Of a DNA stretch of 45,195 nucleotides, positions 250 to 42,592 are shown piece after piece. The notes under the pieces are model-generated. The model did not search any database. It was not told where the DNA came from and worked only from the letters and a program-made list of their open reading frames with translations. Positions within the stretch are counted from its first letter, which is position 1. Each line of letters begins with the position of its first letter. Both the position numbers and the translations under genes were made by a program. The DNA comes from Phycisphaerae bacterium (GTDB taxonomy: Bacteria; Planctomycetota; Phycisphaerae; Sedimentisphaerales; Anaerohalosphaeraceae): assembly GCA_018433925.1 (NCBI GenBank), contig JAHDQI010000069.1, positions 1-45,195 of the forward strand, written 5' to 3'.

Positions 250-903
250 TTATTTTAATACAGTTGCCAAATGCTCAATCGCAAGTCTCGGACTGGCAAG
301 TACCGGTACTGTCATTGTATCAGCCGGAAGCGCAGTAACTGCGCAGGCCATGGAGGCCTGGGCCAAAACGATTACATCGACCCTGCCGGCCAGTTCGAAG
401 ATGCCATTGGTTACAATTTTATCATGGACGGCTGTATCGCCCGCCAGGACCGCTTCAAAGGCACCTTTGCACAATTTTGCCGTAACTTCGAGGTTATTTG
501 CTTGTTGTCTCTGGATGAGATCAACGGTAGGATTCAAAGTGGACGGCAGAGTGGCAATGACACCGATCCGCCTGCCGAGTTCAATCGCCTTTCTTACCAT
601 GGGTTCGTCGACCCGTAGTACCAAGGTATCGACCAATTCGCGCCCGATTTCGGTTCCTTTACCAACGGAGGAGCAGGTAACCAGGATGGCGTCTGTACCT
701 GTCTGGTCGGCGGACAGGATATGATTTACCACACGGCGAGCAGTCGGCTTGGTCAGGCAGCCATCTCGGATAATATCTTTCAGCAGGCTCTCATCGACCA
801 TGTGTATCTGTTCGATATCGGCCAGCAGCTTCCGACAGAGTTCACTAAAAACAGGGATCATAACGTTTGAGGTATGGATTAAGGTCAGTCGTTTTTTCTT
901 CAT
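250..903 (-). CDS. Asp/Glu/hydantoin racemase superfamily protein
   Basis: This 217-residue protein has the two-domain length and motifs of the aspartate/glutamate racemase superfamily. The first catalytic-cysteine motif is intact (LVTCSSVG, Cys77), followed by a conserved RVDEPM segment and an RIGVIATLPST stretch. The position of the usual second catalytic Cys instead reads LAQASM (Ala183-Ser184), although a Cys lies three residues further on. A single-cysteine arrangement is typical of decarboxylase or isomerase members such as arylmalonate decarboxylase rather than two-base racemases, so 'racemase' should not be taken literally. The start ATG overlaps the stop of the transketolase C-half gene by 4 nt (ATGA), implying translational coupling and a shared pathway. 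No signal peptide is visible, so it is cytoplasmic. The substrate is unknown. Confidence 0.8.
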   Translation of the reverse strand: MKKKRLTLIHTSNVMIPVFSELCRKLLADIEQIHMVDESLLKDIIRDGCLTKPTARRVVNHILSADQTGTDAILVTCSSVGKGTEIGRELVDTLVLRVDEPMVRKAIELGRRIGVIATLPSTLNPTVDLIQRQQANNLEVTAKLCKGAFEAVLAGDTAVHDKIVTNGIFELAGRVDVIVLAQASMACAVTALPADTMTVPVLASPRLAIEHLATVLK

Positions 904-4252: not shown

Positions 4253-12373
<8,121 letters not shown>

Positions 12374-14637: not shown

Positions 14638-16212
14638 ATGAGGAACGATCATCACTTGATTGCACTGTTTTTAATATCATTGAATTGTCTGGGCCTGGCA
14701 CAAGACAAAAATGTCGAAAAATGGGGAGTTTATGAGCTGTCATTGCCTGGGCCCACGGGGGGGAATCCATTTGTCGGCATTGAATTCAGCGCTGTTTTCA
14801 AACAGGGCAACCAAACCTTTGAACCGGAAGGTTTTTATGATGGCAACGGAGCATTTAAAATCCGTTTTATGCCGAATGCCGAAGGTCTCTGGACCTATCA
14901 GACAAAAAGCAACTATGATGCCTTAGACAATAAACAGGGACAGTTTATCTGTGTCCCCCCTTCATCGGGAATTCATGGCCCGGTGCGGGTGAGAAATCAG
15001 TATCATTTTGAATATGCAGACGGAACACCGTTTTTCCCTTTTGGCACAACCATTTATGAGTGGCCATTTCAATCGGATACAATGCAGGAGCAGACCATTG
15101 AAACATTGAAAACGTCACCCTTTAACAAAGTTCGTTTTTTAGTAATCCCTCCCTGGCAGGAATATTATATTGAAGGGTCGAAGGTGCTGACTTGCTTTCC
15201 GTTTGAGGGCAATTCAAAGGAGAACTGGAACTTTTCCCGATTTAATCCGGAATTTTTCCGGCGACTGGAAAGGTGTATCCTGGAGTTAAAAAAGATCGGG
15301 ATACAGGCAGAACTCATCCTGTTCAGGCCCTATGATAACGGGAAATGGGGTTTCGACACAATGGATAGGGCGACGAATGACCGCCTTCTCCATTATGTTA
15401 TTGCTCGTTTTGCGGCTTATCATAATGTGTGGTGGAGTCTTGCCAACGAAAACAGCTATATCGAACACCTGACGGATGAGGACTGGGACCATTATTTCCA
15501 GGTGGTGCAACGCTGCGATCCTTATCACCGCTTACGTTCTATCCACAATGCGGATCGGATTTATGATCATACAAAGCCCTGGGTGACACATGTCAGCCTG
15601 CAATATTACATGGCGGTCCGTTTTTTCGGGGTCTCTCCTTTGTTGCGGGACATTTATAAAAAACCGATCATTCACGATGAGATTAATTATGAGGGCAATC
15701 GGGATCGACGCTGGGGACAGCTCTCGGGCGAAGAAATGGTGTATCGGTTTTGGATCGCATATATCGGAGGCGCATACGCAACCCACGGAGAAACGATTCA
15801 ACGGCCGAACAATCCCGACTGGATATCTGTTGGTGGCGACCTGCGGGGGAAAAGTCCGGAACGAATCGCATTTCTGAGAAAGATTGTAGAGCAGGGACCG
15901 GCCCGGGGACTCGATCCAATCGATCAATATTATGAAACAAATATGGCCGGACAATCAGGTCAGTATTATTTAATTTATTTCGGCAAAGAATCTGTGAAGG
16001 AGTGGGCCTTTAAGCTTCCCCAGAAGGGACTTGAGCCAGATATGCGATTTCGCGCAGACGTAATCGATACCTGGAATATGACAATTACACCCGTTGAACA
16101 AGTATTTGAAATCGAAAAATTGAATCCTTATACCTATATTGACAGAAAGCAATCAAAAATTAACCTGCCGGGTAAACCCTACATGGCTCTGAGAATCCAG
16201 CGACTTCAATAA
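14638..16212 (+). CDS. DUF5060/DUF5605 glycoside-hydrolase-like protein (apiosidase-like TIM barrel)
   Basis: A 524-residue secreted protein (signal peptide to about residue 21, GLAQ). It has three parts: an N-terminal DUF5060 beta-sandwich (about 28-105, KWGVYELSLPGP, GFYDGNG, GLWTYQT), a TIM barrel of the DUF4038/GH140-like type (about 120-425), and a C-terminal DUF5605 beta domain (about 435-520). Candidate catalytic acids sit where clan A enzymes carry them: Glu271 in SLANENSY after strand 4 and Glu348 in IIHDEINYEG after strand 7. The related DUF4038 family GH140 cleaves apiose-galacturonic acid linkages in RG-II, so apiosidase is one possibility, but this subgroup has no known activity that I can name. 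It heads the rightward operon; the next gene starts 47 bp later. Confidence 0.8.
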   Translation: MRNDHHLIALFLISLNCLGLAQDKNVEKWGVYELSLPGPTGGNPFVGIEFSAVFKQGNQTFEPEGFYDGNGAFKIRFMPNAEGLWTYQTKSNYDALDNKQGQFICVPPSSGIHGPVRVRNQYHFEYADGTPFFPFGTTIYEWPFQSDTMQEQTIETLKTSPFNKVRFLVIPPWQEYYIEGSKVLTCFPFEGNSKENWNFSRFNPEFFRRLERCILELKKIGIQAELILFRPYDNGKWGFDTMDRATNDRLLHYVIARFAAYHNVWWSLANENSYIEHLTDEDWDHYFQVVQRCDPYHRLRSIHNADRIYDHTKPWVTHVSLQYYMAVRFFGVSPLLRDIYKKPIIHDEINYEGNRDRRWGQLSGEEMVYRFWIAYIGGAYATHGETIQRPNNPDWISVGGDLRGKSPERIAFLRKIVEQGPARGLDPIDQYYETNMAGQSGQYYLIYFGKESVKEWAFKLPQKGLEPDMRFRADVIDTWNMTITPVEQVFEIEKLNPYTYIDRKQSKINLPGKPYMALRIQRLQ

Positions 16213-16259: not shown

Positions 16260-19200
16260 ATGAAAGACAAACTGCTTGTTTGGATATTCTTCCCTGTATT
16301 TCTTTCGGCTTCTGTTCTTTGGGCATCCGTCGGCGATGAAGATGAACCTGTTCGCTTCGTGGGAGAGGCGAAGGTCTCTAACAGTGATTACGAAAACGGG
16401 TATCATGATGGACAGATGCCGGTGGCAATCGGCGTGCAGAATTATCAGATTATGCGTGCCAACCGTACTCATCCGGAGTGGTCCGACGGCCTGGGATGGA
16501 CGTATAATCATGCCCCGATGCTGGCTTATGCAAACGGGCAGTTCTATTGTCAATATTTGAATAATCCTACCGGGGAGCATATCCCTCCGGGCATGACAAT
16601 GCTGACACGTTCTTCCGACGGCAAGCACTGGACCAAGCCGCAGGTACTGTTTCCTGTTTATTTCACATCGGATCCTGAGGATGCAACCAAAATAACATTT
16701 CAGTTTATGCATCAGCGAATGGGCTTTTATGTGGCTCCGAACGGACGTTTTTTAACAATGGCCTTCTATGGTTCGCCTTATGGCGACGGTGTCGGCCGGG
16801 TTGTCCGGGAAATATATCCGGATGATTCCCTCGGACCGGTTTATTTTATCCGTGTTAATGATAATTGGACCGGTGAGGTTAACTATCCGCTTTATACCGC
16901 TTCGAGTGATGCTGGATTTATAGAGGCCTGTAAATCCTTTCTGAATGACAAAATTCGAAGAATTCAATGGTGGGAAGAGGACCACGAAGCCAAGGACCGA
17001 GATGAGTTTTATCGAGTCACATGGGGCGGTCAAACGGGGCGAAGCAAACCGGCCAAAGCGTTTTGTTTTTATACGCGCCCGGATGGAGCCGTGGTAGGTT
17101 TTTTCAAGAGTCGGTGGACGTCGATGACACGAGACCAGGGCCAAACCTGGTCACCATTGGTCCGCTGCGAAACGCTGACTTACGGAGGAGCAAAGATATG
17201 GGCACAAAAACTGGATAACGGCCAATATGCACTGGTCTATAATCCGACTGACAGCATGGCTCGCCATCCATTGTGTATTACCCTCAGCGACGATGGTATT
17301 TATTACGATCATCTTCTTAATATTCACAGTGAAGTGCCTGTCAAGCGGTTCTGGGGACGTGAAAAACGTCCCGGGGCGCAGTATGTTCGGGGCATCGTCG
17401 AGGGCAACGGCAATCCTCCCGGTGATGATCTATGGGTTGTTTATTCTTCCAATAAAGAAGATATCTGGATTTCCCGTGTGCCGATTCCGGTCCAAAGGGA
17501 GGTCCGAGGGCCTGTTCATGACGATTTCAACCAAATGGAAACCGGAGGGGTCATTGACGGGTGGAATATTTATTCACCGAAATGGTGCCCCATCGAAGTC
17601 GTGGACTTTCCGAGTGCAACTGAAAAAAGCATGTGCCTGAAAGATGCCGACGCCTGTGACTATGCGAAAGCCGTCCGAGTGTTTCAAAAATCTTCTGCTT
17701 TATCGCTTTCATTCGAACTGTATATTGAATCATCTGAACAGATTCTGGATATTGAAATTGTGTCGGCCAAAGGCGGCCGTTTGATTCAAACCCGAATCAA
17801 TCAAGACCGTCAATGGTTGGTCAAAAACGGAAATCAGGCCTATCAACCCGAAATGAGATTGAATGCCGGGCAATGGTATTCAATAAATTTTCGGGCGGAT
17901 GCATCGAAACAGCAATTTTCCGTTCAGTTGGATGGGAATTCAATTGTCAAAGACGCCTCTTTTACATCCCTCGAAGGGCTTCCGGAAAGAATTATCTTCA
18001 GGACAGGCCACTATCGGCTGACGGAGGATGTTCAGAAATATAAAAGCGGCAGTGCGACGGTAAGAGGTACAGATGAACCGGGAGCAGATGAGCCGGTTCC
18101 GGCAGCCGTGTATTATATTAAAAATTTCCAGGCAGTCGGCTCAGCGGCGTCCTTGTTACAGCCTGAGACATTCCGGAGTTATGTAGATTATTTTAACGCC
18201 ATGGAGGAGGAAAATATTGTCAACGAAATTTCAAATGCCGAATCCTGGGATTGGATGAAAGACCATATCCCTTTTTTTGAATGCCCTGACAAGACCATTG
18301 AGCAAATTTACTATTATCGTTGGTGGACCTTTCGTAAGCATTTGAAAAAGACACCGGATGGCTACGTCTTTACTGAATTTCTTGACAAGGTAGGCCACAG
18401 CGGAAAATACAATACGATTAGCTGTGCCATCGGCCATCACGTCAGCGAAGGCACCTGGCTGCGGGACCCTCGGTATATCGATCAGTACGCCCGTTTCTGG
18501 TACACCGGCAATAACGGCGGCCTGCAACCGCATCTGCACAAATACAGCAACTGGGCTGCGGCAGCATTGTATCGCCGATTCCTGGTCAATCGGGACAAAC
18601 TGTTTTTGATTGGTTTGCTGGATGCTTTGGTACGGGACTATGAGACCTGGGTAGAGAACAAAGGTTTAGAAAACGGCCTTTTCTGGCAATACGATGTCCG
18701 GGATGCAATGGAGGAATCCATCAGCGGCGGCCGAAAAGTGAAAAACATTCGCCCCCCACTGAACTGTTATATGTACGCCAATGCCGCGGCCATAGCGAAA
18801 ATCGCCGAGATGGCCGGCGACCCGAAGTTGACCCAAGAGTATACGCAAAAGGCAGCCAATCTAAAATCATTGGTTCAGGAACTGCTGTGGGATGACAGCG
18901 CCTCATTTTTCGTTGTGCGCCGCCCGGATGGAACCTTTGCCAATGTTCGTGAGGAAATCGGCTTTATCCCCTGGTATTTTAATTTACCGGACAGGGGTTT
19001 TGAAAAGGCATGGCAGCAGTTGACGGACCCCCAGGGATTCAAGGCTCCCATGGGAATCACGACCGCTGAACGTCGTCATCCGGAGTTCCGCAGTCACGGG
19101 ATTGGGACTTGCGAATGGGACGGGGCTGTATGGCCGTTTGCCACCAGCCAAACCCTCACCGCGATGGCAAATCTGTTGCGGCATTATGATCAGGCCTATG

Positions 19201-19613
19201 TAACCAACGAAGATTATTTTGAGGCATTACAGACGTATGCCCGCTCCCATCAATATAATAACAAACCCTATATCGGAGAATATCTTGATGAAATTAACGG
19301 GACATGGTTAACACCGGATTCGGACCGAAGCCGATATTATAATCATTCGACTTTTTGTGATCTCGTAATTACCGGCCTGGCCGGCCTGGTGCCCCGGGCA
19401 GATGATATTGTAGAGATCAAACCGCTGCTGCCGAGTGAAACATGGGATTGGTTCTGCCTGGACGGGGTTTCGTATCATGGGAAAATGCTTACGATTTTAT
19501 GGGATCGAACGGGCGAAAAATATAAAAAGGGGAAGGGGTTGCGTATTTTTTCTGAGGGCAGGGAAATCGGACAGGCCGACAAGCTGACACCCCTGACTGC
19601 GAAACTTCAGTAA
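16260..19613 (+). CDS. Sialidase-like beta-propeller fused to (alpha/alpha)6 hydrolase; GH143-GH142-like bifunctional enzyme
   Basis: A 1117-residue secreted protein with a signal peptide to about residue 22. Residues 30-410 look like a five- or six-bladed propeller with Asp boxes SSDGKHW (118-124) and TRDQGQTW (290-297). Residues about 420-625 form a jelly-roll/LamG-like module (starting HDDFNQMETGG). Residues about 640-1110 form an (alpha/alpha)6 domain of the MGH1/GH63-like type (GTCEWDGAVWPFATSQTL at 949-966). The order propeller, beta-sandwich, (alpha/alpha)6 and the length match, as I recall it, Bacteroides BT1020, whose GH143 and GH142 modules cleave DHA and beta-L-arabinofuranose from RG-II chain D. 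That specific assignment is inference. The alternative is an unassigned BNR-repeat protein with an MGH1-like glycosidase. The GH78 gene follows closely. Confidence 0.75.
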   Translation: MKDKLLVWIFFPVFLSASVLWASVGDEDEPVRFVGEAKVSNSDYENGYHDGQMPVAIGVQNYQIMRANRTHPEWSDGLGWTYNHAPMLAYANGQFYCQYLNNPTGEHIPPGMTMLTRSSDGKHWTKPQVLFPVYFTSDPEDATKITFQFMHQRMGFYVAPNGRFLTMAFYGSPYGDGVGRVVREIYPDDSLGPVYFIRVNDNWTGEVNYPLYTASSDAGFIEACKSFLNDKIRRIQWWEEDHEAKDRDEFYRVTWGGQTGRSKPAKAFCFYTRPDGAVVGFFKSRWTSMTRDQGQTWSPLVRCETLTYGGAKIWAQKLDNGQYALVYNPTDSMARHPLCITLSDDGIYYDHLLNIHSEVPVKRFWGREKRPGAQYVRGIVEGNGNPPGDDLWVVYSSNKEDIWISRVPIPVQREVRGPVHDDFNQMETGGVIDGWNIYSPKWCPIEVVDFPSATEKSMCLKDADACDYAKAVRVFQKSSALSLSFELYIESSEQILDIEIVSAKGGRLIQTRINQDRQWLVKNGNQAYQPEMRLNAGQWYSINFRADASKQQFSVQLDGNSIVKDASFTSLEGLPERIIFRTGHYRLTEDVQKYKSGSATVRGTDEPGADEPVPAAVYYIKNFQAVGSAASLLQPETFRSYVDYFNAMEEENIVNEISNAESWDWMKDHIPFFECPDKTIEQIYYYRWWTFRKHLKKTPDGYVFTEFLDKVGHSGKYNTISCAIGHHVSEGTWLRDPRYIDQYARFWYTGNNGGLQPHLHKYSNWAAAALYRRFLVNRDKLFLIGLLDALVRDYETWVENKGLENGLFWQYDVRDAMEESISGGRKVKNIRPPLNCYMYANAAAIAKIAEMAGDPKLTQEYTQKAANLKSLVQELLWDDSASFFVVRRPDGTFANVREEIGFIPWYFNLPDRGFEKAWQQLTDPQGFKAPMGITTAERRHPEFRSHGIGTCEWDGAVWPFATSQTLTAMANLLRHYDQAYVTNEDYFEALQTYARSHQYNNKPYIGEYLDEINGTWLTPDSDRSRYYNHSTFCDLVITGLAGLVPRADDIVEIKPLLPSETWDWFCLDGVSYHGKMLTILWDRTGEKYKKGKGLRIFSEGREIGQADKLTPLTAKLQ

Positions 19614-24740: not shown

Positions 24741-27683
24741 ATGAGGAGTCCCTCTTTTTTTGTGCGGCGATGCTCACTTCATCCTTTGATAGATATCCGC
24801 ACATTGATACTGAACAGAGATCATCTGGTTAAAAGGAAGTCGCCGCGAATATCTCCACTTGTCCATAATCCTGTTTTACAAATCATCCTTTGTGCCATAT
24901 TATTCTGCTTTTCACTTCAGGGTTGCGGCGCCGGCACATATTCTGAACTTTTCTCACACGAGATTCGCGTCGACACGCTACGTTGCGAATACCTGGCAAA
25001 TCCAATGGGAATCGATACCCGCAAGCCCCGCTTGAGTTGGGTGATTGATTCGGCAGCCAGGAGTATCAGGCAAAGTGCTTATCAGGTACTGGTTGCTTCG
25101 GATGCAAAAGCATTAGACAAAAATATTGGAGATCTTTGGGACAGCGGAAAAGTGTCTTCGGATCAATCTGTTCATGTAGAATATGAAGGGACGAAACTTG
25201 CGTCTTATCAGGATTGTCATTGGAAAGTCAGGATCTGGGATCAAAACGGCAGGGTATCCGGTTGGAGCCCCCCTGCTCATTGGTCCATGGGGATCATCGA
25301 GCCGAATGAATGGAAAGCCAAATGGATTCAGCAGCAGGATCCTGCCTCTTCGAATGCTGAACAGAATGAACTCCTTAACTCTCTCTACCCGTTGCCTATT
25401 TTCCGAAAAGATTTTCAAATTAAATCCGGCTTAAAAAATGCGAAAGTGTACATCTCAGGCCTTGGCCATTATGAGTTATTTCTAAATGGGAAAAAAGTAA
25501 GCTCACGCTTTCTTGATCCGGCGTGGTCTGTTTACGAAAAAACGGTTTATTACAACACCTTCGACATCACCAATCAGCTAACAAAGGGGGAAAATGCTTT
25601 TGGTGTCATGGTAGGCAAGGGATTTTATAATACCAAGGGAGATCGCCGTATTCATTTTGTCGATGTCTATCGTCCGCTCAAGCTCATCGTGCAATGCTAT
25701 CTTGTATATGAAGACGGTACTTCTCAGGTTTTGGTATCGGATAATTCCTGGAAGTTTACAAGAGGCCCGCTTACACATTGTGCGATTCTGGGCGGCAGCA
25801 GCTATGATGCCCGTCGTCTGCCGGAGGATTGGTGTTTGCCGGAATTTGAAACGAATGACTGGCTGTCTGCTGAAGAAACATCCGGCCCGGGCGGGCAACT
25901 GAAAGCATTTACTGGGGCCCCCATGCAAACAATACATACCTTTGTCCCAACCGCTGTCGATGAGCCGGAACCCGACTGCTATGTCTATGATTTTGGACAG
26001 AACGCTTCATGTATTCCCTGCATTAAGGTAGAAGGCAAAGCAGGACAAACCATACGATTAACACCATCCGAACAGCGACACGGTCAGACGGGAGTTGCCA
26101 ATGACGGCAAGGGCAGAGTCAACCAGGCTCGTGTGGGGCGTCCTAATTATTGGGAATATACTCTCAAAGGTGAAAATCCGGAAACATGGTCGCCCCAATT
26201 TACCTATACCGGTTTTCAATATATGGAGGTATCTGGAGCGGTTCCCGTCGGTCGGCCCAATCCCAAAAACCTGCCGGTTATCAAGGAGCTCGTCGCCAAA
26301 CAGGTCCGAAACACCTCCGCCCGGGCAGGAACATTTGAATGCTCGAATCAATTATTCAACGCAATCGACAATTTGATTGATTGGTCAGTCCAAAGCAATA
26401 TGTCCCATGTATTTACGGACTGTCCCCATCGGGAAAAACTCGGCTGGCTTGAGCAGACTTACCTCATGGGCCCATCTTTTTTTTGGAAATATAAGGGTGG
26501 AGCTTTTTATACAAAAATAGTGCGAGACATCCAGGATTCACAGGGACCTGACGGGATTATCTATACCGTGGCTCCGAAGTATCCGGATTTTGGGAGCTAT
26601 GACATTTTTAACGATAGCCCTGAGTGGGGGGCGGCGGGTGTGTACCTTCCGTGGCAGCTTTACGGCTGGTATGGCGACCGAAGAATTCTTGAAGAAAGCT
26701 ATCCCATGATGAAGAATTATGTGGATTATATGCAGTTGACCTCGAAGGATTTGATCGCTCGGCCCGGCCTTGGGGACTGGTATGATTACGAGCCAGGCAT
26801 CCCCCCCGGATACTCACGTTTTACACCGCCGACTCTGACAGCCACAGCTACCTTTTACGCGTGCTGTGAGATTGTATCTAAAACAGCCGCTCTCCTTGGA
26901 AAACAAGAGGATGCTGAAACGTATGCATTGCGCTGCCAGAACATCAAACACAGATTTAATCAGGAATTTTTCGACGGTTCAGCAATCTATTCAAATCATG
27001 GAAGTCCGCAGACAGCAAACGCCATGGCTTTGGTTTTGGGCCTGACTCCGCCAGACACTGAAGCGGCAGTGCTCGAATCCATTATTGCCGACTTAAAAGA
27101 GCGTGAGTATCAGCATACAACCGGTGATGTCGGGTATTTTTATCTTGTTCAGGCCCTCAGTGAAAATAATCGGTCAGATGTGCTTTATAAAAACACGAAT
27201 CGGGATACAGTGGGAAGCTATGGCTATATCATCAAGCAGGGCTGGACCAGCATGACGGAAGCATGGGAAGCCACGCTGACTTCATCAATGAATCATTGTA
27301 TGCTCGGACATATTCAGCAGTGGTTTCAGCAGTGCCTTGCAGGCATCCGGCCGGATCCAACCGGTCCCGGATTTAAAAAGTGTATCATCAAGCCGGAAGT
27401 TGTCGGCGATATTACGTGGTGCAGAGGATCTCATGAATCGCTTTATGGAACAGTCAAAACGGCCTGGGAATTGAAAGACGGCCGTTTTGCGCTGGATGTA
27501 ACCATTCCGGCAAATACAACCGCAAGGGTGTATATTCCGACCGTCAAACAGTCCGATGTAATGGAAGGGCCGGGTTATGCTGCGGACTCAGAAGGGATTC
27601 TATTTGATCGGATGGAGGCCGGCAAAGCTGTGTTTAAAATCGAATCCGGCTCTTATAAATTCAGAGTGCCCTATGATCCATAA
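24741..27683 (+). CDS. GH78 family protein, second subtype, predicted lipoprotein
   Basis: About 980 residues. I choose the ATG at 24741, with GGAG 7 nt upstream; a longer frame starts at 24660 without a ribosome-binding site. The N-terminus has an unusually long polar stretch (about 40 residues) before a hydrophobic helix and lipobox (SLQGC). Domains follow the GH78 order, beginning LRCEYLANPMGID. The active-site segment is TDCPHREKLGWLEQ: the spacing between Asp560 and the general acid Glu565 is one residue shorter than in the other two GH78 proteins, as in Bacillus RhaB, and Gln replaces the second conserved Asp. The C-terminal base motif reads TSMTEAWEA instead of TxIWERW. These features mark a different GH78 clade, probably with a different rhamnosyl linkage or acceptor. 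Confidence 0.9.
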   Translation: MRSPSFFVRRCSLHPLIDIRTLILNRDHLVKRKSPRISPLVHNPVLQIILCAILFCFSLQGCGAGTYSELFSHEIRVDTLRCEYLANPMGIDTRKPRLSWVIDSAARSIRQSAYQVLVASDAKALDKNIGDLWDSGKVSSDQSVHVEYEGTKLASYQDCHWKVRIWDQNGRVSGWSPPAHWSMGIIEPNEWKAKWIQQQDPASSNAEQNELLNSLYPLPIFRKDFQIKSGLKNAKVYISGLGHYELFLNGKKVSSRFLDPAWSVYEKTVYYNTFDITNQLTKGENAFGVMVGKGFYNTKGDRRIHFVDVYRPLKLIVQCYLVYEDGTSQVLVSDNSWKFTRGPLTHCAILGGSSYDARRLPEDWCLPEFETNDWLSAEETSGPGGQLKAFTGAPMQTIHTFVPTAVDEPEPDCYVYDFGQNASCIPCIKVEGKAGQTIRLTPSEQRHGQTGVANDGKGRVNQARVGRPNYWEYTLKGENPETWSPQFTYTGFQYMEVSGAVPVGRPNPKNLPVIKELVAKQVRNTSARAGTFECSNQLFNAIDNLIDWSVQSNMSHVFTDCPHREKLGWLEQTYLMGPSFFWKYKGGAFYTKIVRDIQDSQGPDGIIYTVAPKYPDFGSYDIFNDSPEWGAAGVYLPWQLYGWYGDRRILEESYPMMKNYVDYMQLTSKDLIARPGLGDWYDYEPGIPPGYSRFTPPTLTATATFYACCEIVSKTAALLGKQEDAETYALRCQNIKHRFNQEFFDGSAIYSNHGSPQTANAMALVLGLTPPDTEAAVLESIIADLKEREYQHTTGDVGYFYLVQALSENNRSDVLYKNTNRDTVGSYGYIIKQGWTSMTEAWEATLTSSMNHCMLGHIQQWFQQCLAGIRPDPTGPGFKKCIIKPEVVGDITWCRGSHESLYGTVKTAWELKDGRFALDVTIPANTTARVYIPTVKQSDVMEGPGYAADSEGILFDRMEAGKAVFKIESGSYKFRVPYDP

Positions 27684-30600
27684 ACCCTTAAGAACAGACT
27701 CAATAAACAGGCATAACAACGCAACACAAAAGCGAAACGTTATGTGCAGCCCCTGGTTTCTGTATGCGGCCATTCAAACCGCCGTGGCATGTTCGTTTAG
27801 TGGGCACGGTTTTTGCGAAACACCGGTGCGTGAAATAAAGTCTCTTAATAATGACTGGTTTACAGTCCTTCATGAACCGAATCAGCCCGATGAAATGTAT
27901 AGGAGCAAGGCGGCAGGATCTAACTGGAAGAAAGTAACCCTGCCTCATAACTGGGATGATTATGGGGGGGCTCGCCAACGGCGGCATGGAAATCTGCACG
28001 GCACGGCATGGTATAAGAAGCAAATTGAGATTCCGGGTAGAACGGAAAAAAAGCGGTATTTTCTGCGATTTGAAGGGGTTGGTACGTATGCCACCGTGAT
28101 CCTAAACGGAATCAATTTAGGACGGCATCCCGGCGGACGCGTATCGTTTACGCTGGATGTAACTTCGGCTGTCAAGCCGGGACAGACCAATCTGCTCCTT
28201 GTCAAAGCGGAACATCCCGTCATGATTTCTGATATGCCCTGTGTATGCGGAGGATGCAGCAGTGAGTGGGGATTTTCCGAGGGATCACAGCCTTTCGGAA
28301 TTTATCGGCCGGTTGTGATGGAAGTTACGGATTCAATCCGAATCGAACCGTTTGGGGTGCATGTATGGAACGACGAAAAAGCAGAGACCGTATGTATTGA
28401 AACAGAGGTAAAGAATTACGGGGACACTGCTGAAACCATTGAAATCATCAGTACTTTCAAAGACAAAAGGAATCAAACCGTTTTTCGATTGGCGAAGGAA
28501 ATTACCCTTGAAGCGGGGCAGGTTAAAATCGTAAAGCAGTCTGCAACGCTTGACAATCCGCACTTCTGGTCAGTTGATGATCCTTATCTCTATGCAGTAA
28601 GCAACAGCATCATTCACAACAATAAAAGGATTGACAAGGTTCTAACGCCGTTTGGTATTCGGACTGTAAGCTGGCCGGTCATACGCAAAGATGGTGATCA
28701 TCGTTTTTTACTGAATGGCAAAGCGGTGTTCATTAACGGGACCTGTGAATACGAACATCTTCTTGGACAAAGCCATGCTTTCAGCAGCGAGCAAATACAA
28801 TCCCGGGTCAAGCAGATCAAGGCGGCCGGTTTTAACGCGTTTCGAGAGGCGCACCAGCCCCATCATCTTTTGTACCAAAAACTCTGGGATGAAACCGGAA
28901 CGCTGTTTTGGTCGCAGTTCTCCGCGCATATCTGGTATGACACGCAGTCATTTCGGAACCATTTTATAAGTCAACTGCGGCAATGGATCAAGGAAAGACG
29001 CAACAGCCCCTCTGTAGTGATGTGGGGTCTGCAGAATGAAAGTGTTCTGCCGAAGGCATTTGCCGAGGAATGTTGCAAGATTATTCGCCAGATGGATCCG
29101 ACGGCATCCCGCCAGCGTATCATTACAACATGCAACGGCGGCAAGGGGACCGATTGGAACGTTGTGCAAAACTGGAGCGGAACCTATGCCGGGGATCTGT
29201 ACAAGTACGATGAAGAATTGTCGCGCCCGGATCAGTTGCTCAACGGCGAATACGGAGCATGGCGAAGCATTGACCTGCACACAGAGGGTTCCTTTGATCC
29301 CGAAGGCGTTTGGAGCGAAGACCGAATGACTCAGCTACTGGAGATGAAAGTCCGACAGGCCGAATCTGTTAAAGACCGGGTATGCGGACAATTTCAGTGG
29401 CTTTTCAATTCACATGATAATCCCGGCCGCCGGCAGCCGGACGAAGGATATCGTATCATCGATAAAATCGGCCCGTTCAATCATAAAGGACTGGTGACAA
29501 TTTGGGAAGAGCCGCTGGATGTCTATTATATGTATCGGGCCAATTACGTCCCGGCCCGAGATGATCCGATGGTTTACATTGTCTCGCATACGTGGCCCGA
29601 CCGTTTTTCGGCCGCCCGGAAAGCAACGCTGCGCGTATATTCGAATTGCGAGGAAGTAGAACTGTTTAATGATGCGGCAGAAACCCAATCTCTTGGCAGA
29701 CGCAAACGCAGCGGAGTTGGCACCCATTTTGTTTGGGAGCAAGCAGAGGTCCGATATAATGTACTGTATGCAAGAGGATACTACCAGGGCAAATCCGTTG
29801 CAGAAGATCTGATTATTCTGAACAATCTTCCCCAGGCCCCTCATTTTGATAGGGTATATCAAAATATCGAACCGCTTTTGCGGGCTGAACCGGGATATCA
29901 TTACCTCTATCGTGTCAACTGCGGCGGAGATACTTATATAGACAGGCATGGACAAAAGTGGCACCAGGATACGGCCCTGGGCAACAGCAATGGGCACTGG
30001 GGATCACGTTCATGGGCGGATGATGATCCGGACCTGAATCCTTATCTTGCCAGCCAGCGTCGAACGTATGATCCGATTAGACGAACACGGGACTGGGAGT
30101 TGTTTCAGACCTTTCGGTTCGGACGGCATAAGTTGTCATATCATTTCCCCGTTCCAAACGGCCGCTATCGGGTAGAACTGTATTTTATTGAGCCATGGCA
30201 CGGAACCGGCGGCAGTATTGATTGTCAGGGTCTTCGGATCTTCGATGTAGCTGTCAATGACATTACATGGATCAACGATCTGGATATCTGGGCAGAGGTC
30301 GGAACTGATACCGCTTATAAAAAAGTGGTTCAGGTAAATATCACGGACGGCCGTTTAGACATTACCTTTCCTGAAGTCAAGGCCGGCCAGGCCGTGATTT
30401 CGGCGATCGCGGTAGCGTCTCTGGACAAAACGATCAAACCGGCCCCCGCCTCACCCGCTAAGGGCTGGTCATGGGAGACTATTCCAAAAGTGATGAAAAC
30501 CCCGACAAGTGAATTACCCGAAGGAATGGGACCTCGCCCGGTCACAACGTATCCAGCGCAGGAGGCCCGGTCCGGTGGGAATTTCACGAAGGTAACGCTG

Positions 30601-30921
30601 GCTAAACGAGAAGCCGTTTGTTTTGAAGAAGGGAATGTTAATCGTATCGAATGGGATATTTCCGTTGGATTAGCCCAAGTCTATGCGCTGCGTTTTAAGT
30701 ATATGAATACAGGCAATCAGCCGATTGTCGTGAACCTCCAAATCGTGGATGATAAAGGGGATATTCTGAAAGATGACAGGATAACGTTTCCTGAAACAGG
30801 CGAAAAATGGCGCCTTGTCAACACGACGACAGAACACTGCATCAATGCAGGGAAGTACGTAGTACGACTTTTTTCGGCCGAGACGAAAGGGTTGTGTTTT
30901 CATGTGCTGGATGTACAGTAA
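27673..30921 (+). CDS. GH2 glycosidase with malectin domain (beta-galactosidase-like)
   Basis: About 1082 residues. Order: export signal, GH2 sugar-binding jelly roll (about 55-210), Ig-like domain, TIM barrel (about 330-620), an Ig-like DUF4982-type domain, a malectin carbohydrate-binding domain (about 765-930, YLYRVNCGGDTYIDRHGQKW, VPNGRYRVELYFIEP), and a final beta domain. Catalytic acids are Glu456 in GLQNESV and Glu526 in LNGEYGAWR. The start is uncertain: ATG 27673 overlaps the GH78 stop by 11 nt and is preferred. ATG 27742 would begin right at the hydrophobic signal. The frame itself opens at 27577. The malectin module suggests tethering to a glycan. The exact sugar is unknown; beta-galactoside, beta-glucuronide and arabinopyranoside are all compatible with GH2. 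Confidence 0.88.
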   Translation: MIHKPLRTDSINRHNNATQKRNVMCSPWFLYAAIQTAVACSFSGHGFCETPVREIKSLNNDWFTVLHEPNQPDEMYRSKAAGSNWKKVTLPHNWDDYGGARQRRHGNLHGTAWYKKQIEIPGRTEKKRYFLRFEGVGTYATVILNGINLGRHPGGRVSFTLDVTSAVKPGQTNLLLVKAEHPVMISDMPCVCGGCSSEWGFSEGSQPFGIYRPVVMEVTDSIRIEPFGVHVWNDEKAETVCIETEVKNYGDTAETIEIISTFKDKRNQTVFRLAKEITLEAGQVKIVKQSATLDNPHFWSVDDPYLYAVSNSIIHNNKRIDKVLTPFGIRTVSWPVIRKDGDHRFLLNGKAVFINGTCEYEHLLGQSHAFSSEQIQSRVKQIKAAGFNAFREAHQPHHLLYQKLWDETGTLFWSQFSAHIWYDTQSFRNHFISQLRQWIKERRNSPSVVMWGLQNESVLPKAFAEECCKIIRQMDPTASRQRIITTCNGGKGTDWNVVQNWSGTYAGDLYKYDEELSRPDQLLNGEYGAWRSIDLHTEGSFDPEGVWSEDRMTQLLEMKVRQAESVKDRVCGQFQWLFNSHDNPGRRQPDEGYRIIDKIGPFNHKGLVTIWEEPLDVYYMYRANYVPARDDPMVYIVSHTWPDRFSAARKATLRVYSNCEEVELFNDAAETQSLGRRKRSGVGTHFVWEQAEVRYNVLYARGYYQGKSVAEDLIILNNLPQAPHFDRVYQNIEPLLRAEPGYHYLYRVNCGGDTYIDRHGQKWHQDTALGNSNGHWGSRSWADDDPDLNPYLASQRRTYDPIRRTRDWELFQTFRFGRHKLSYHFPVPNGRYRVELYFIEPWHGTGGSIDCQGLRIFDVAVNDITWINDLDIWAEVGTDTAYKKVVQVNITDGRLDITFPEVKAGQAVISAIAVASLDKTIKPAPASPAKGWSWETIPKVMKTPTSELPEGMGPRPVTTYPAQEARSGGNFTKVTLAKREAVCFEEGNVNRIEWDISVGLAQVYALRFKYMNTGNQPIVVNLQIVDDKGDILKDDRITFPETGEKWRLVNTTTEHCINAGKYVVRLFSAETKGLCFHVLDVQ

Positions 30922-36697: not shown

Positions 36698-38242
36698 TCA
36701 GGACCCTTTCATACATTCTGAATGCTTTTGTCTTTCAAGCCAGCCATAAAAGGTCATATGACGGATGTTTTTGTCCGGTTTGAAAAAGAAGCTGGCCGTA
36801 TAGCCGACCCCAAAGAGAACCAGATGACTGTATACCCCCAGCATGTATTTGTGGTGGGTAAAATTATAGGGTCCCAGATCGATAAATCTTTCCGACGTCA
36901 GCAGCGCATACCCTGTAAATAAAACACAGGCTGCCATGCCTGCGTAAAGACCTTTGGTATTGGCCCGTATCGTAAAAAATGCCAGCATAAATAGGCCCGC
37001 AATGCCTCCTGAAAAGATCGCGTATAAAGTAAATACGGTTTTCAGAACAGTGGCCCCTTCGCTCCGGACATACCAGAAAGCCACGCACATTGCTAAAAGG
37101 CCGCAAAGGACAACGACGATTCGTCCTACGTTCAAACACTGTGGATCACTGCTGCCCGGCCTGAAACGAAGGTAATAATCCGATACACCCACGGCAGCAA
37201 GGCAATTCAGATCCGAATCAAGGCTGGACATCGCGGCGGCAATCAGCGCCGCAAGAATAAGTCCTGTAATCCCTGCCGGAAGTTCAGTCATAATAAAGTA
37301 CGGAAACACAGCATCCGCTTTGATACCCTCCGGCAATGAATGCCCCGCCCCCTGGTAATAAGACCACAGGCAGGTTCCAATAAACATAAACAACGTCCAG
37401 ACCGGCACACACAGAAGAGTTCCCATGAAAGCGGCTTTTATAGCGGCCCGATCAGATTTGGCGGCCAGAAATCGCTGCACAATGGTCTGATCCGTACCGT
37501 ATTTTTGAATCGCATAGAATATTCCATTCAGCGCCATCACGATAAAAGTCAACCGTGTAAAAGAAATATCATAGGGTCCGGTAGATATTTTATTGTTTTC
37601 CCACGCTCTCTGTAGAATGGCCGCTGGCCCTCCTTCAGGCCTGAACAACAACACACACAAACACATCAGCCCCCCCGTAATCAGCATAAATCCCTGAATA
37701 ACATCGGACCACACAACGGCTTCAATACCGCCAAGCAGTGTATAGATAATGGTAAACAGGCCCAGCACCAGGATCACCATATACGTGTTATAACCGGTCA
37801 TTTTACTTAACGCCAATGCCAGAAGATAAAAAACCGTTCCCATTTTCGAAAAATGGGCCAACGCAAACGCTAAAGAACTATATAAACGCGCAAAGTATCC
37901 AAATCGTTTTTCAAAATATTCATAAGCACTCAACCCGATGATCCTGCGATAACACGGCACGATAAACCAAATGATCCCCAGCAGTGCGATTGGAACCATG
38001 ATTCCCTGCACCAAACGGATCCAGTTGGAAGCATACCCTTCTCCCGGATACGCCAAGAATGTCACGCTGCTTATCAGCGTTGCCAGCAGACTCATCCCCA
38101 GCGCCCAGGCCGGAATATTTCTGCCGCCCGCGAAATACTCATCCGTCGAATTCTGTTTCCGTGAAAAGTATCCCCCAATAGCAATGATCACAGCCAGGTA
38201 AACCAAAACCACACAGTAATCCAAAATGTGTAAACCGGGCAT
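36698..38242 (-). CDS. SSS-family sodium:solute symporter (acid-sugar operon)
   Basis: A 514-residue membrane protein of the SSS family: STDEYFAGGRNIPAWALGMS and ISSVTFLAYPGEGYA near the N-terminus, GGIEAVVWSDVIQGF in the middle, and AAAMSSLDSDLNCLAAVG at the sodium-site region. About 13 helices are apparent. AGAAAGGAAAT precedes the ATG. It is the last gene of a five-gene operon, 33 bp after the DUF1537 kinase, so its likely cargo is the acid sugar consumed by that pathway. SSS members include sialic acid (2-keto-3-deoxy acid) transporters, which fits the idea that a related keto-deoxy acid is imported, but the cargo is an inference. Confidence 0.93.
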   Translation of the reverse strand: MPGLHILDYCVVLVYLAVIIAIGGYFSRKQNSTDEYFAGGRNIPAWALGMSLLATLISSVTFLAYPGEGYASNWIRLVQGIMVPIALLGIIWFIVPCYRRIIGLSAYEYFEKRFGYFARLYSSLAFALAHFSKMGTVFYLLALALSKMTGYNTYMVILVLGLFTIIYTLLGGIEAVVWSDVIQGFMLITGGLMCLCVLLFRPEGGPAAILQRAWENNKISTGPYDISFTRLTFIVMALNGIFYAIQKYGTDQTIVQRFLAAKSDRAAIKAAFMGTLLCVPVWTLFMFIGTCLWSYYQGAGHSLPEGIKADAVFPYFIMTELPAGITGLILAALIAAAMSSLDSDLNCLAAVGVSDYYLRFRPGSSDPQCLNVGRIVVVLCGLLAMCVAFWYVRSEGATVLKTVFTLYAIFSGGIAGLFMLAFFTIRANTKGLYAGMAACVLFTGYALLTSERFIDLGPYNFTHHKYMLGVYSHLVLFGVGYTASFFFKPDKNIRHMTFYGWLERQKHSECMKGS

Positions 38243-38275
38243 GGTTATTTCCTTTCTGTAAAGTGACTCGATTGT

Positions 38276-39451
38276 TTACTTTTCATCTCTTTTTTCCCAT
38301 ATGATTTTCGGCCAGGGATAACTGCCCGGCTTTATCGTCAGATGAATAGGATCGCTTTCCAAAACCTTCATCCGAACAACTCCGGGGCCCAGCAGATCAC
38401 AAGGTTCAAAACGAGTCCACCCAAAGCAGGCGGCGATCTCAGAAGCGGTCGCTCCTCCCTCCGCAAATAATTCGTTCAATGGCATCCTCTGAAGTACGGT
38501 CAATACGATGTGCGCTAACCTTCGGCGAAGTGTTTCGGCAAACTCCGCCTTTCCGGCAACCTCACGATCAATCGCAATGAATACATGATCCCAATGTTTA
38601 AAACTTCCGATGATCTCATCGGTCCATTTCTGAAAGGAAGCATCCTCGGGACAGTTCGATCTAAAAAGTCCCTCCGGCATTCTGCAAACTCTCCCCCCAA
38701 GACGCTCTGCTTTTCGTAAGGCCTGGCGGCTGGTATTCGAACTGCTGCCGCAGATCAATAATGCTTTTTGATCTAAGCGATATGGGCTTTCTTCCACATT
38801 CTTTTTCCTCACAAATCCTTTGCCCTCGAGAATCGCCTCAAAAAAGTCTCCCGCTCCGGCCATCATGGTTTGTTCATCCGTTCGTTCTGACCACCGGATA
38901 AGATCTTCTTTCGTTTCGGCCTGGCCGATCACAATTCCTTCGCATGGAAACGGCTGATCGCTTTTTAGATAATGGATTTGACGGGCTCCGGACAAAGCCG
39001 GCATATCAAGAACACGGGAGGTTCTTGCGGGATATTCCGGATCCTTGGCAAAATCCGTATTACTCAGCAGCTTTCCGTTTATCAGGTAATTGCCGTCATA
39101 TACCACCCGTCCTTTAGAGGGATTTGCCGGAACAAGCAAAACTCTCGCAGTCCTCATGACATCCCTCAGCGCTTCCAATTCGCCGGCAACGGGTCCGCGA
39201 AGAACCGAGTCGGTCTTTTTGTAAATCCATTCAATCGGCAGCCGCGATGCAGTCAGGCGACAAGCAACATCCCGTATCACCCGCCCGGCCGCTTCCGGCG
39301 AAAAAGATCGGGTATCTGTATCAATAACCAGCAACTCCGCATCGCTTTCAGCACAAAACCCCCTCTGTAGCTCCACGCTTAAGCCATAGGCAAGACCAAG
39401 GCCCCCAATCTCCCCGGCCCCAGTCAGGTCATCCGCAATCACAACAATCAT
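38276..39451 (-). CDS. DUF1537 four-carbon acid sugar kinase family protein
   Basis: A 391-residue cytoplasmic kinase. Family motifs are clear: IADDLTGAGEIG at the N-terminus, IYKKTDSVLRGPVAGEL (substrate-side Lys-Thr-Asp-Ser), GNYLINGKLLSNTDFAKDP, LLICGSSSNTSRQAL, and EGGATASEIAACFGW in the nucleotide-binding C-terminal domain. Characterised members phosphorylate D-threonate, L-threonate, D-erythronate or 3-oxo-isoapionate with ATP. It is slightly shorter than the usual 420 residues or so. It lies 23 bp after a PdxA-family dehydrogenase, the partnership of the D-threonate pathway (DtnK with PdxA2), which makes D-threonate or a close C4 acid the best substrate guess. The Shine-Dalgarno is weak, hinting at coupling to upstream translation. 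Confidence 0.92.
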   Translation of the reverse strand: MIVVIADDLTGAGEIGGLGLAYGLSVELQRGFCAESDAELLVIDTDTRSFSPEAAGRVIRDVACRLTASRLPIEWIYKKTDSVLRGPVAGELEALRDVMRTARVLLVPANPSKGRVVYDGNYLINGKLLSNTDFAKDPEYPARTSRVLDMPALSGARQIHYLKSDQPFPCEGIVIGQAETKEDLIRWSERTDEQTMMAGAGDFFEAILEGKGFVRKKNVEESPYRLDQKALLICGSSSNTSRQALRKAERLGGRVCRMPEGLFRSNCPEDASFQKWTDEIIGSFKHWDHVFIAIDREVAGKAEFAETLRRRLAHIVLTVLQRMPLNELFAEGGATASEIAACFGWTRFEPCDLLGPGVVRMKVLESDPIHLTIKPGSYPWPKIIWEKRDEK

Positions 39452-39474
39452 AAAATGTCCAAAATAAAACCGGA

Positions 39475-40500
39475 TTAGGATACAAGTTGAACGGCATACT
39501 CAATCGCATGGATCAGACTTTCCTCATTGGCTGTTCCCTTGCCCGCCTGATCGAAAGCAGTGCCGTGATCCACTGATGTTCGAATGATCGGAAGGCCCAG
39601 CGTAATATTCACCCCCTTAACCGATTCCCATTTCCGGGTCTGATTATTAAAAACAAATCCTGTCACTTTCACGGGAATGTGTCCCTGATCATGGTACATC
39701 GCCACAGCAATATGATACTGCCCTCCTTTTACCTTCGAAAACAAAGTGTCCGCCGGCACAGGCCCCTCTGCTTGAATTCCAAGAGATACGGCGCTTTTTA
39801 CAGCCGGTATGATTTCTCTTTCTTCCTCATCTCCAAACAGCCCCCCTTCCCCAGAATGCGGATTTAAACCCGCCACACCAATGACCGGTTTTGCGATACC
39901 AAGTCGCCTGCATGCATCATCCGCCAATTGAATAACTTCCAGAACCCTTTCTTTCGTGACAAGCTCGCACGCGCGTTTTAGCGAAACATGCGTAGAAACA
40001 TGCACCACCCTCATGTCCCCTTCCACGAGAAGCATGGCATATTGTTTTGTCTTTGTATAATCAGCAAAGATTTCTGTGTGGCCTGCATACGAGTACCCCG
40101 CCTGGTTTAAGGATTCCTTGTTAATCGGCCCCGTCACCGACGCATCGATTTGACCGTCCATCGCAAGCGCAATTACTTTTTCAATGGCCTCAAAAGCCGC
40201 CTTCCCCGCCATCGACGAAACCTTCCCATACTCGAAAGCTTCGATGTTGACATTGTTTAAATCCAGAACCTCCGCCACTCCGTATTGAAATAGTGATTCA
40301 CTGGGCCGGGTAACAGCTCTTATCTCAAAACTGGCTCCCACAAGACCTGCCGCCCGTGTCATGACTCCGGCATCGCCGACAATAATCGGCCTGGCGATTT
40401 CATACACTTTTTTATTGGCCAGTGCTTTGGCGGCTATTTCCGGGCCGACACCGGCAGGATCGCCCATCGTAATTCCAAGGATCGGTCGTCTTTCAGGCAT
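39475..40500 (-). CDS. pdxA2: PdxA2-like 4-phospho-acid-sugar dehydrogenase
   Basis: A 341-residue NAD-dependent oxidative decarboxylase of the PdxA family. Motifs: GITMGDPAGVGPEIA at the N-terminus, GHTEIFADYT (His141), and metal ligands His171 (STHVSL), His215 (LNPHSGEGG) and His270 (AMYHDQGH). A GTANEES motif follows near the C-terminus. PdxA proper makes pyridoxal precursors from 4-phosphohydroxythreonine; PdxA2 enzymes beside DUF1537 kinases oxidise D-threonate or D-erythronate 4-phosphate to DHAP and CO2. The kinase neighbour, and the absence of pdxJ or other vitamin B6 genes, support the catabolic role. It sits 36 bp after the aldolase gene and 23 bp before the kinase. Discriminating PdxA from PdxA2 by sequence alone is uncertain. 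Confidence 0.9.
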   Translation of the reverse strand: MPERRPILGITMGDPAGVGPEIAAKALANKKVYEIARPIIVGDAGVMTRAAGLVGASFEIRAVTRPSESLFQYGVAEVLDLNNVNIEAFEYGKVSSMAGKAAFEAIEKVIALAMDGQIDASVTGPINKESLNQAGYSYAGHTEIFADYTKTKQYAMLLVEGDMRVVHVSTHVSLKRACELVTKERVLEVIQLADDACRRLGIAKPVIGVAGLNPHSGEGGLFGDEEEREIIPAVKSAVSLGIQAEGPVPADTLFSKVKGGQYHIAVAMYHDQGHIPVKVTGFVFNNQTRKWESVKGVNITLGLPIIRTSVDHGTAFDQAGKGTANEESLIHAIEYAVQLVS

Positions 40501-40536
40501 CCTTCATATTCCTTTAGAATAGTCTTGAAAACGGCT

Positions 40537-41442
40537 TCAAGAGTAGATTCCCGTTTCCATTTGTTTTTTGAGATCAGCAATATCTTCTTCTTGAAGTGTT
40601 TCAAGAGGAGCCAAAACCGTTGCCCCGCAAAATCCAAGAAGATGCATTGCCGCTTTTAAGGCCGCTAATGACTGGCCCAATGACCTGTTTTTTTGATAGG
40701 ATTGTGAAATACGGTCGGTTTGGTGCTGAAGTTTTTCTGCTGCAGACAGATGGCCGTCCAGGGCCGTTTCAAAAAGAGCTTTATAAAGTTGCGGCTGCAG
40801 ATTCGCGGCACTCGGGACAATCCCCGCTGCTCCCAGCGAAACGGCCCTGGCCGAAAGAGCTGCACAGCCGACAACATAAGCAAAATTGCTTCGCCCGGAA
40901 AATCGCCCGATCGCGGCCTCCAGTCGTCCGGGGGTATTCTCGGAATCCTTCATACCCACAATTCGCTCATGAAGACTCAATTTGGCTGCTGTATCAATCG
41001 AAATAGAAAGCCCCGTCGTCGCGGGAATATTATAGATCATCAAGGGCCCGGGTACACAGTCGGCTAAGGTCATGAAATACCTGACGATCTCATCCTGACC
41101 AAGCGGATAATAATAAGGGGCGTGAGCGACTAAAACATCAGCCCCAAGATCCATATAGCGCTTTGCCGCCTGAATAGACTCATCCATGCAGTTCCCGGAT
41201 ATGCCTGCATAAACAAGGGCCCTGTGTTTCGTGTCTTCGACAGTACTCTCAACCAGCTTCGCTTTCTCCATGAAAGAGATTGAAGCCGCTTCTCCAGTCG
41301 TCCCAAGGACAAAAATACCGTCCATGCCGCCGGCAATGAGATGGTCGACAATTCGATGAACCCCTTCCGGATCAATCTGTCCTGCTGCCGTAAAAGGGGT
41401 TACCATGGGTACAATTACACCTTGACATCTTCCGTTAGCCAT
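40537..41442 (-). CDS. DHDPS/N-acetylneuraminate lyase family aldolase
   Basis: About 301 residues of a class I pyruvate aldolase. Schiff-base Lys165 is in VGMKDSENT, Tyr137 in MIYNIPATTG, and the pyruvate-binding motif is GTTGEA (47-52). The Arg that true dihydrodipicolinate synthases use to bind aspartate semialdehyde (E. coli Arg138) is Thr142 here. It is therefore unlikely to be DapA and more likely cleaves a 2-keto-3-deoxy sugar acid to pyruvate and an aldehyde. I choose the ATG at 41442 (MANGRCQG), which overlaps the dehydrogenase stop by 8 nt. A longer frame to 41493 adds a leader that overlaps the neighbour. Its place between an alcohol dehydrogenase and PdxA2 suggests that its aldehyde product feeds those enzymes. 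Confidence 0.92.
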   Translation of the reverse strand: MANGRCQGVIVPMVTPFTAAGQIDPEGVHRIVDHLIAGGMDGIFVLGTTGEAASISFMEKAKLVESTVEDTKHRALVYAGISGNCMDESIQAAKRYMDLGADVLVAHAPYYYPLGQDEIVRYFMTLADCVPGPLMIYNIPATTGLSISIDTAAKLSLHERIVGMKDSENTPGRLEAAIGRFSGRSNFAYVVGCAALSARAVSLGAAGIVPSAANLQPQLYKALFETALDGHLSAAEKLQHQTDRISQSYQKNRSLGQSLAALKAAMHLLGFCGATVLAPLETLQEEDIADLKKQMETGIYS

Positions 41443-42592
41443 TCTTCCATGCGCTCCTGTAAATTGCCAATGCATCCTTATACGTAATCTCACGAAGATT
41501 ATTTTTCAAAAGTCTTGTAACCGTCATCGCGGATTCGGCCATGGCCTCAAGGTCTTCATAAGGAATGTTCAATTCCGACAGCTTCGAGGGGATCCCGCAC
41601 TGATCTGACAACTCGCGGACAAGAGCCAATCCCCGTTGAGCCGTTTCCCTGTCATCCCTTCCTTTTTCCGCACCCAGAGCTTCCGCAATTCCTGCATATC
41701 TTTCGGGAGCCGCCTGCAAATTAAAATGCATGACATGCTGCAAGAGCACTGCATTCGATACGCCATGAGGAATATGATATTTCCCCCCCAGCGGGTAGGC
41801 CAATGCATGGACGGCCCCGGTATTCACGGGACCCAGGCAAAGCCCGCCATACATACTCCCCAGGGAAAGCTTTTCTCTGGCCTCCGCATCCAAGCCGTTT
41901 TTATAAGCGATTGCCAGATTGGCCGCGATTAGCCGAATCCCTTCCAGCGCGTAATGATCTGTAATCGAATGAGCAAATCGGTTCGCATAGGCCTCGATAC
42001 AATGGACAAGTGCATCCATCCCTGTGGCCGCTGTTACAGACGCAGGAACGGTATGAGTCAACAGCGAATCAATATAGGCCGCATCCGCGACAAGATGCCT
42101 ACTGACGACACCTTTTTTTAATTGATCCAAAGAATCAAAAAGGATCGCATTGGGTGAAACCTCGCTGCCGGTCCCCGCCGTTGTGGGCAAACACGCAAGA
42201 GTGACGCCTCGGCTGTTTAGCTTGTCAATGCCCAAAACATCCATGATTGACTGCTCACTATCGCACAAGGCAGCCATGAGTTTGGCCAGATCAAGAACGC
42301 TTCCTCCGCCGAATCCGATAACGGCATCGGCCCGAACCTTTCGGCAGGTCTCCAGTCCCTCTTCCAGCATCTCTATTGTGGGTTCCCGGTCCCCTGCCTG
42401 CCATACATTCGCAGGAATCCCTTTATTCTTGAATTGCTCAACCAGAGGCATAACAAGCGGAACAATGGGCTCTGATGTCACGATTAACACCCGGCTGCAG
42501 CCAAGGCACGATAAATCTTCTGCGACCTGTTCGCTGCAGCCATTGCCGAAAACCAATTTCTGTGGTTGACGTAAAGTGACACTTCTTTCCAT
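41435..42592 (-). CDS. Iron-containing alcohol dehydrogenase (group III)
   Basis: A roughly 385-residue NAD(P)-dependent Fe-ADH. The N-terminal dinucleotide domain has GFGGGSVLDLAKL (94-106) and TTAGTGSEVSP. Metal ligands match FucO spacing: Asp193, His197 (MDALVHCIEAY), His262 and His276 (HALAYPLGG, HIPHG). Such enzymes interconvert small aldehydes and alcohols. In this operon it would reduce the aldehyde made by the adjacent aldolase (or lactaldehyde from rhamnose). I choose ATG 42592 (MERSVTL), where family homology begins; a longer frame starts with TTG at 42628. The Shine-Dalgarno is weak at either start. It is the first gene of the leftward acid-sugar operon, placed just after the terminator of the LamG gene. 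Confidence 0.92.
   Translation of the reverse strand: MERSVTLRQPQKLVFGNGCSEQVAEDLSCLGCSRVLIVTSEPIVPLVMPLVEQFKNKGIPANVWQAGDREPTIEMLEEGLETCRKVRADAVIGFGGGSVLDLAKLMAALCDSEQSIMDVLGIDKLNSRGVTLACLPTTAGTGSEVSPNAILFDSLDQLKKGVVSRHLVADAAYIDSLLTHTVPASVTAATGMDALVHCIEAYANRFAHSITDHYALEGIRLIAANLAIAYKNGLDAEAREKLSLGSMYGGLCLGPVNTGAVHALAYPLGGKYHIPHGVSNAVLLQHVMHFNLQAAPERYAGIAEALGAEKGRDDRETAQRGLALVRELSDQCGIPSKLSELNIPYEDLEAMAESAMTVTRLLKNNLREITYKDALAIYRSAWKNG

Follow-up and report, generated by a model that had tools for sequence, protein, structure and literature searches.

Which compound is broken down by the five-gene operon on the minus strand of contig JAHDQI010000069.1, at positions 36698-42592 of the 45,195-nt stretch analysed here (the window)? 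We consider it highly probable that the operon serves to break down DHA (3-deoxy-D-lyxo-2-heptulosaric acid), freed from side chain D of rhamnogalacturonan-II (RG-II). DHA is a rare seven-carbon acid sugar of this plant-wall pectin, and hydrolases that strip RG-II are already known. The answer draws on the observed gene content, on linkage and co-occurrence with the glycoside hydrolase family GH143 and on a stereochemical fit, from which we infer each enzymatic step, the import and the order of the steps. The five genes and the Pfam families found in them by domain scan are:

41435..42592, minus strand: iron-containing alcohol dehydrogenase (Fe-ADH; PF00465/PF25137), proposed reductase of a four-carbon (C4) aldehyde acid to D-threonate
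40537..41442, minus strand: class I aldolase of the dihydrodipicolinate synthase/N-acetylneuraminate lyase (DHDPS/NAL) superfamily (PF00701), proposed DHA aldolase yielding pyruvate and 2,3-dihydroxy-4-oxobutanoate
39475..40500, minus strand: predicted PdxA2-type decarboxylating 4-phospho-D-threonate dehydrogenase yielding dihydroxyacetone phosphate (DHAP) (PF04166, closest solved relatives)
38276..39451, minus strand: DUF1537 acid-sugar kinase (PF07005 + PF17042), proposed D-threonate kinase
36698..38242, minus strand: SSS-family Na+ symporter (PF00474/TIGR00813, above cut-off), proposed DHA importer

The 3′ end of the Fe-ADH gene (42592-41435) overlaps the start of the aldolase gene (41442) by 8 bp, and the following intergenic gaps are 36 bp (aldolase/PdxA), 23 bp (PdxA/DUF1537) and 33 bp (DUF1537/SSS); because of this overlap and the 23-36 bp spacing the five genes were read as a single operon. 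Such an operon had been proposed in an earlier note on this DNA, and its coordinates, strand, spacing and every family assignment were confirmed by the scans. Only 10 bp lie between the end of the SSS gene and that of a convergent GH2 gene (33955-36687), with which a glycosidase operon ends.

In the proposed pathway the GH143 domain of a protein from the convergent operon would release DHA from RG-II side chain D, the SSS symporter would take it up, and the aldolase would split it into pyruvate and a four-carbon aldehyde acid retaining C4-C7. The Fe-ADH would reduce this acid to D-threonate, which the DUF1537 kinase would convert to 4-phospho-D-threonate, and the PdxA2 enzyme would oxidise and decarboxylate the phosphorylated acid to DHAP and CO2. 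The redox balance would be neutral, with one NAD(P)H used and one gained. Recomputing the stereochemistry, we found that cutting D-lyxo DHA between C3 and C4 and reducing C4 gives (2S,3R)-2,3,4-trihydroxybutanoate. This is D-threonate, as the earlier note had derived from retro-aldol cleavage and reduction; L-threonate is (2R,3S) and D-erythronate (2R,3R). The conversion of D-threonate to DHAP and CO2 by a DUF1537 kinase and PdxA2, which the note had cited as known, is established in the literature as the action of D-threonate kinase and 4-phospho-D-threonate dehydrogenase (PMC10079672). The operon shares with this D-threonate pathway (DtnK, a DUF1537 kinase, and PdxA2) the kinase, a dehydrogenase of the same PdxA paralogue class and the products DHAP and CO2. 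It differs in that an aldolase and a reductase would make D-threonate intracellularly from a C7 sugar, and in the divergence of its kinase subfamily from DtnK.

Judged by homology, the convergent glycosidase operon is an RG-II locus. The following RG-II-related genes were recognised in the window:

16260..19613, plus strand: BT1020 homologue that joins GH143 (DHA hydrolase) to GH142 (beta-L-arabinofuranosidase) and starts with a signal-like sequence (PF24067 propeller 279.5 bits; 5mqr 1033 bits, full length)
27577..30921, plus strand: BT0996-like RG-II glycosidase, GH2 part (NF049877 1697.8 bits, cut-off 1800; positions 366-1400, N-terminal part of the model unmatched)
14638..16212, plus strand: GH140-like apiosidase family protein (PF13204 + PF16586 + PF18310)
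4253..6283, minus strand: GH127-type aceric acid hydrolase, RG-II specific (NF049879 996 bits, cut-off 950)

The structure 5mqr is, going by its Pfam name, BT1020. Three GH78 enzymes and GH2 enzymes are also encoded in the window. All these components, from the GH143-GH142 DHA hydrolase to the GH78 and GH2 enzymes, are shared with the RG-II loci of Bacteroides thetaiotaomicron. The earlier note had called the glycosidase operon RG-II-like; with a BT1020 homologue, an aceric acid hydrolase and a BT0996-like protein the window goes beyond that description. GH143 was created for an enzyme that cleaves DHA from RG-II. Its founding member, BT1020, combines a site for DHA hydrolysis with a beta-L-arabinofuranosidase site, both acting on RG-II chain D, and GH143 catalysis uses a Tyr/Glu nucleophile pair (PMC6811678). 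The protein at 16260..19613, encoded by a single-copy gene in the genome, has the BT1020-type propeller. In 27 homologues Tyr82, Tyr375, Glu106, Glu239, Glu400 and at least seven Arg are invariant. Since the BT1020 homologue is full-length, the enzyme that would release DHA is present: the predicted releaser of the proposed substrate, at which the earlier reader had merely guessed, is encoded within the window.

Does the operon accompany GH143 in other genomes? The earlier note had proposed a search for this co-occurrence, which we determined in 289 Verrucomicrobiota genomes with score cut-offs placed at gaps in the score distribution, not by outcome. Both distributions were bimodal: GH143 scored at least 149 bits in 12 genomes and at most 87 in the others, the aldolase at least 318 bits in 11 genomes and at most 258 in the others. 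All 11 aldolase genomes carry GH143, one GH143 genome lacks the aldolase, and the remaining 277 have neither, so that the aldolase was found in 0 of the 277 genomes without GH143. The Fisher p value, which ignores kinship of the genomes, was 4.9e-19 (1.2e-17 without the seed genome); on the tree the aldolase sequences of this group are diverse. The outcome in Verrucomicrobiota is strongly supportive, and a chance neighbourhood of operon and RG-II genes was rejected by this test.

In all 11 Verrucomicrobiota genomes the cluster of Fe-ADH, aldolase, DUF1537 and PdxA2 genes also contains GH143 as a stand-alone gene, usually directly behind PdxA2; GH142 is often divergent on the opposite side (loci L210-L217, L150). 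The GH143 and GH142 halves are thus separate genes here, whereas in Bacteroides they are fused in BT1020. A named isolate, Pelagicoccus sp. SDUM812005, bears the full cluster. The linkage holds too in KSB1, in another Planctomycetota genome and in Bacteroidota: in the KSB1 locus L067 GH143 stands immediately before aldolase-PdxA2-DUF1537-SSS, and in L062, L069 and L076 it lies ~13-25 kb from the operon (contigs taken as the same). Among 18 genomes that carry related aldolases, 14 gave a strong GH143 match (255-413 bits); the four exceptions are genome G311, the draft genomes G394 and G401, and an archaeal genome in which the aldolase has no operon linkage. The Planctomycetota sample provided few cases, with two operon genomes in 392, one of them with GH143. 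Co-occurrence, linkage and stereochemistry together support the earlier interpretation that DHA would be degraded via D-threonate. GH143 genes without an adjoining operon were seen at L220 and L223 (genomes G569 and G527); the GH143 neighbourhood in L223 includes genes resembling those for sulfatases and ABC transporters, as well as a distantly related (28%) DHDPS-type aldolase.

The aldolase belongs to the DHDPS/NAL class I superfamily by its PF00701 score of 206 bits. The alignment shows that Schiff-base Lys165, Tyr137 and Thr48-49 are retained, Lys165 and Tyr137 being invariant across the operon aldolase clade. The best fold match of the predicted model (predicted local distance difference test, 91.9) was N-acetylneuraminate lyase (5c54, E 2e-25). 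The arginine of DapA, whose absence the earlier note had remarked on, is indeed replaced: Thr142 occupies the position of E. coli DapA Arg138. This residue, a TIGR00674 score of 173.5 bits against a cut-off of 206 and a better DapA elsewhere in the genome set the enzyme apart from DapA. From N-acetylneuraminate lyase it is set apart by its TIGR00683 score (114 bits, cut-off 382) and by the lack of Asp or Glu at positions 193/194. No acidic residue occurs there in any of the 28 clade members, whereas NanA, YagE and DapA have one or two; the lack would suit a substrate with an acidic distal end. On the tree all 28 operon-type aldolases fall into one clade (approximate likelihood-ratio support, SH-aLRT, 99) beside a NAL-like group. 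With NanA and YagE the operon enzyme shares the class I Schiff-base TIM barrel, and just as NanA works after a sialidase, it would work after a sialidase-fold hydrolase. It differs by standing in its own clade, by lacking at 193/194 the acidic pair of NanA/YagE (193-195 in the numbering of the window aldolase) and by its linkage to GH143, unlike NanA with its sialidase. Lysine or vitamin B6 biosynthesis was rejected as the role of the operon aldolase and PdxA: the same genome encodes a second PdxA and, on a different contig, a stronger DapA, which makes the operon genes additional paralogues not needed for these syntheses.

The dehydrogenase is, by its sequence relationships, of the PdxA2 class and not PdxA. 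Its top solved relatives are the PdxA2 structures 2hi1, 4jqp and 6e85 ('D-threonate 4-phosphate dehydrogenase'; E 1e-84 to 1e-81), whereas E. coli PdxA matched more weakly (E 2e-54). In the operon PdxA proteins the D-threonate-4-phosphate dehydrogenase model NF002891 outranks NF002520, whereas E. coli PdxA ranks the two the other way round; the window protein does not reach the curated equivalog cut-off of NF002891 (319 against 583 bits). The kinase, encoded by the sole DUF1537 gene in the genome, exceeds the cut-offs of both its domains (PF07005 109.9 bits, PF17042 28.5 bits). It scored 115.5 bits with the D-threonate kinase model NF047819 and 49.5 bits with the 3-oxo-tetronate kinase model, and the former was the best model in 5/5 operon kinases scanned. 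These scores only suggest specificity for D-threonate. The SSS gene was found in most operon clusters.

To see how far the operon extends, the aldolase was scanned against 84,980 species genomes. Relatives with 38-66% identity were found in Planctomycetota, Verrucomicrobiota, KSB1 and Bacteroidota; Gemmatimonadota, Pseudomonadota and Acidobacteriota contributed single fragments or incomplete loci. At least 12 relatives have aldolase, PdxA2 and DUF1537 clustered as a core, whose gene order differs between groups. More distant aldolases (28-34%) are unlinked to kinase/PdxA2 genes. In Planctomycetota family f39 (L055, L056) a divergent aldolase clusters with Fe-ADH, PdxA2 and DUF1537, accompanied in L055 by genes judged by eye to encode a TRAP-type-looking transporter. 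Gene sets on two Firmicutes plasmids, from Enterococcus raffinosus (L229 3641-9669) and Subdoligranulum variabile (L230 685-11221), comprise DUF1537, Fe-ADH, a DHDPS-type aldolase (30%), PdxA2 (57-58%) and a BNR_2 sialidase-like protein; L229 adds YhcH and a CitMHS-type transporter. They were rejected as the same operon because their aldolase falls outside the clade, and they may represent a second route, recruited independently, for a 3-deoxy-ulosaric acid that is released by a hydrolase other than GH143.

Several observations weigh against a DHA pathway of the proposed form. The kinase lies well under the curated DtnK cut-off of NF047819 (115.5 against 450 bits). Three genomes of the same genus (G157, G209, G261) have a GH143-GH142 protein 65-73% identical to that of the window yet lack both this kinase and this aldolase. 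A Bacteroides control genome with GH143 shows no DUF1537 match and so lacks the proposed route, which sets it apart from the window despite the shared RG-II enzymes. The operon is therefore not required for RG-II use, and GH143 genomes without it may discard DHA or take another route. Conversely, G311, of the same order, has the operon but no detected GH143; two PA14 + BNR sialidase-like proteins flank its operon (L051 1992-3620 and 14428-17256) and are candidates for other ulosaric-acid hydrolases. Finally, Fe-ADH is not adjacent to the operon in L062, L067, L072 and L076, where it may be replaceable or non-essential, and it reached no curated NCBIfam subfamily cut-off. This last point bears on an unlikely variant that retains DHA as the substrate and changes the steps: Fe-ADH might act elsewhere, the aldehyde acid might be phosphorylated before reduction, or a housekeeping dehydrogenase might reduce it. 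However, Fe-ADH is linked in most operons and adjoins the other genes in the remaining complete clusters, including all 11 of Verrucomicrobiota, and the step that would otherwise stay unfilled, from the aldolase product to D-threonate, calls for precisely a reductase.

It is far less probable that the aldolase acts on Kdo (3-deoxy-D-manno-oct-2-ulosonic acid) or another 3-deoxy-2-ulosonic acid, with a different C4 acid as the substrate of the DUF1537/PdxA2 pair. Kdo is likewise an RG-II sugar, the aldolase shares its superfamily with N-acetylneuraminate lyase and 2-keto-3-deoxygluconate aldolases, and the sialidase-like neighbours in G311 fit such a substrate. But Kdo cleavage would give D-arabinose, leaving kinase and PdxA2 without a role, and the hydrolase linked in Verrucomicrobiota is the DHA-specific GH143. 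A general operon for D-threonate or another tetronate, merely located near RG-II genes, has the smallest chance of all: DUF1537 + PdxA2 pairs without RG-II genes do exist (L052, L231), yet a tetronate operon would need no aldolase, and members of this aldolase clade go together with GH143 throughout Verrucomicrobiota and show linkage to it in other phyla.

Further genes of the window may serve other functions. Just upstream of the operon a LamG/Ig-domain protein with a dockerin-like C-terminus is encoded (42722-44848, minus strand), and LamG/Ig proteins precede the operon in L062 as well. A split transketolase pair (900-2704, minus strand) lies by a GPH-type symporter and the aceric acid hydrolase, and a similar pair occurs near the operon in L067 and L074; it may take part in breaking down a different RG-II sugar, for instance apiose. 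The transketolase operon also contains an Asp/Glu/hydantoin racemase family protein (250-903, minus strand), which has no NCBIfam match.

A search of the open-access literature found no description of a DHA catabolic route. The enzyme types are individually known, and the pathway assignment appears to be new. We think it likely that a dedicated DHA aldolase family, with a reductase, feeds D-threonate kinase and PdxA2 across Planctomycetota, Verrucomicrobiota, KSB1 and Bacteroidota, possibly also in Acidobacteriota and Gemmatimonadota. This assignment, if true, would establish a family of DHA aldolases and a redox-neutral path from a C7 diacid to pyruvate and DHAP, recognisable in genomes from one aldolase clade adjoining GH143. 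Bacteria with GH143 would then divide into those that use DHA by this route and those that do not.

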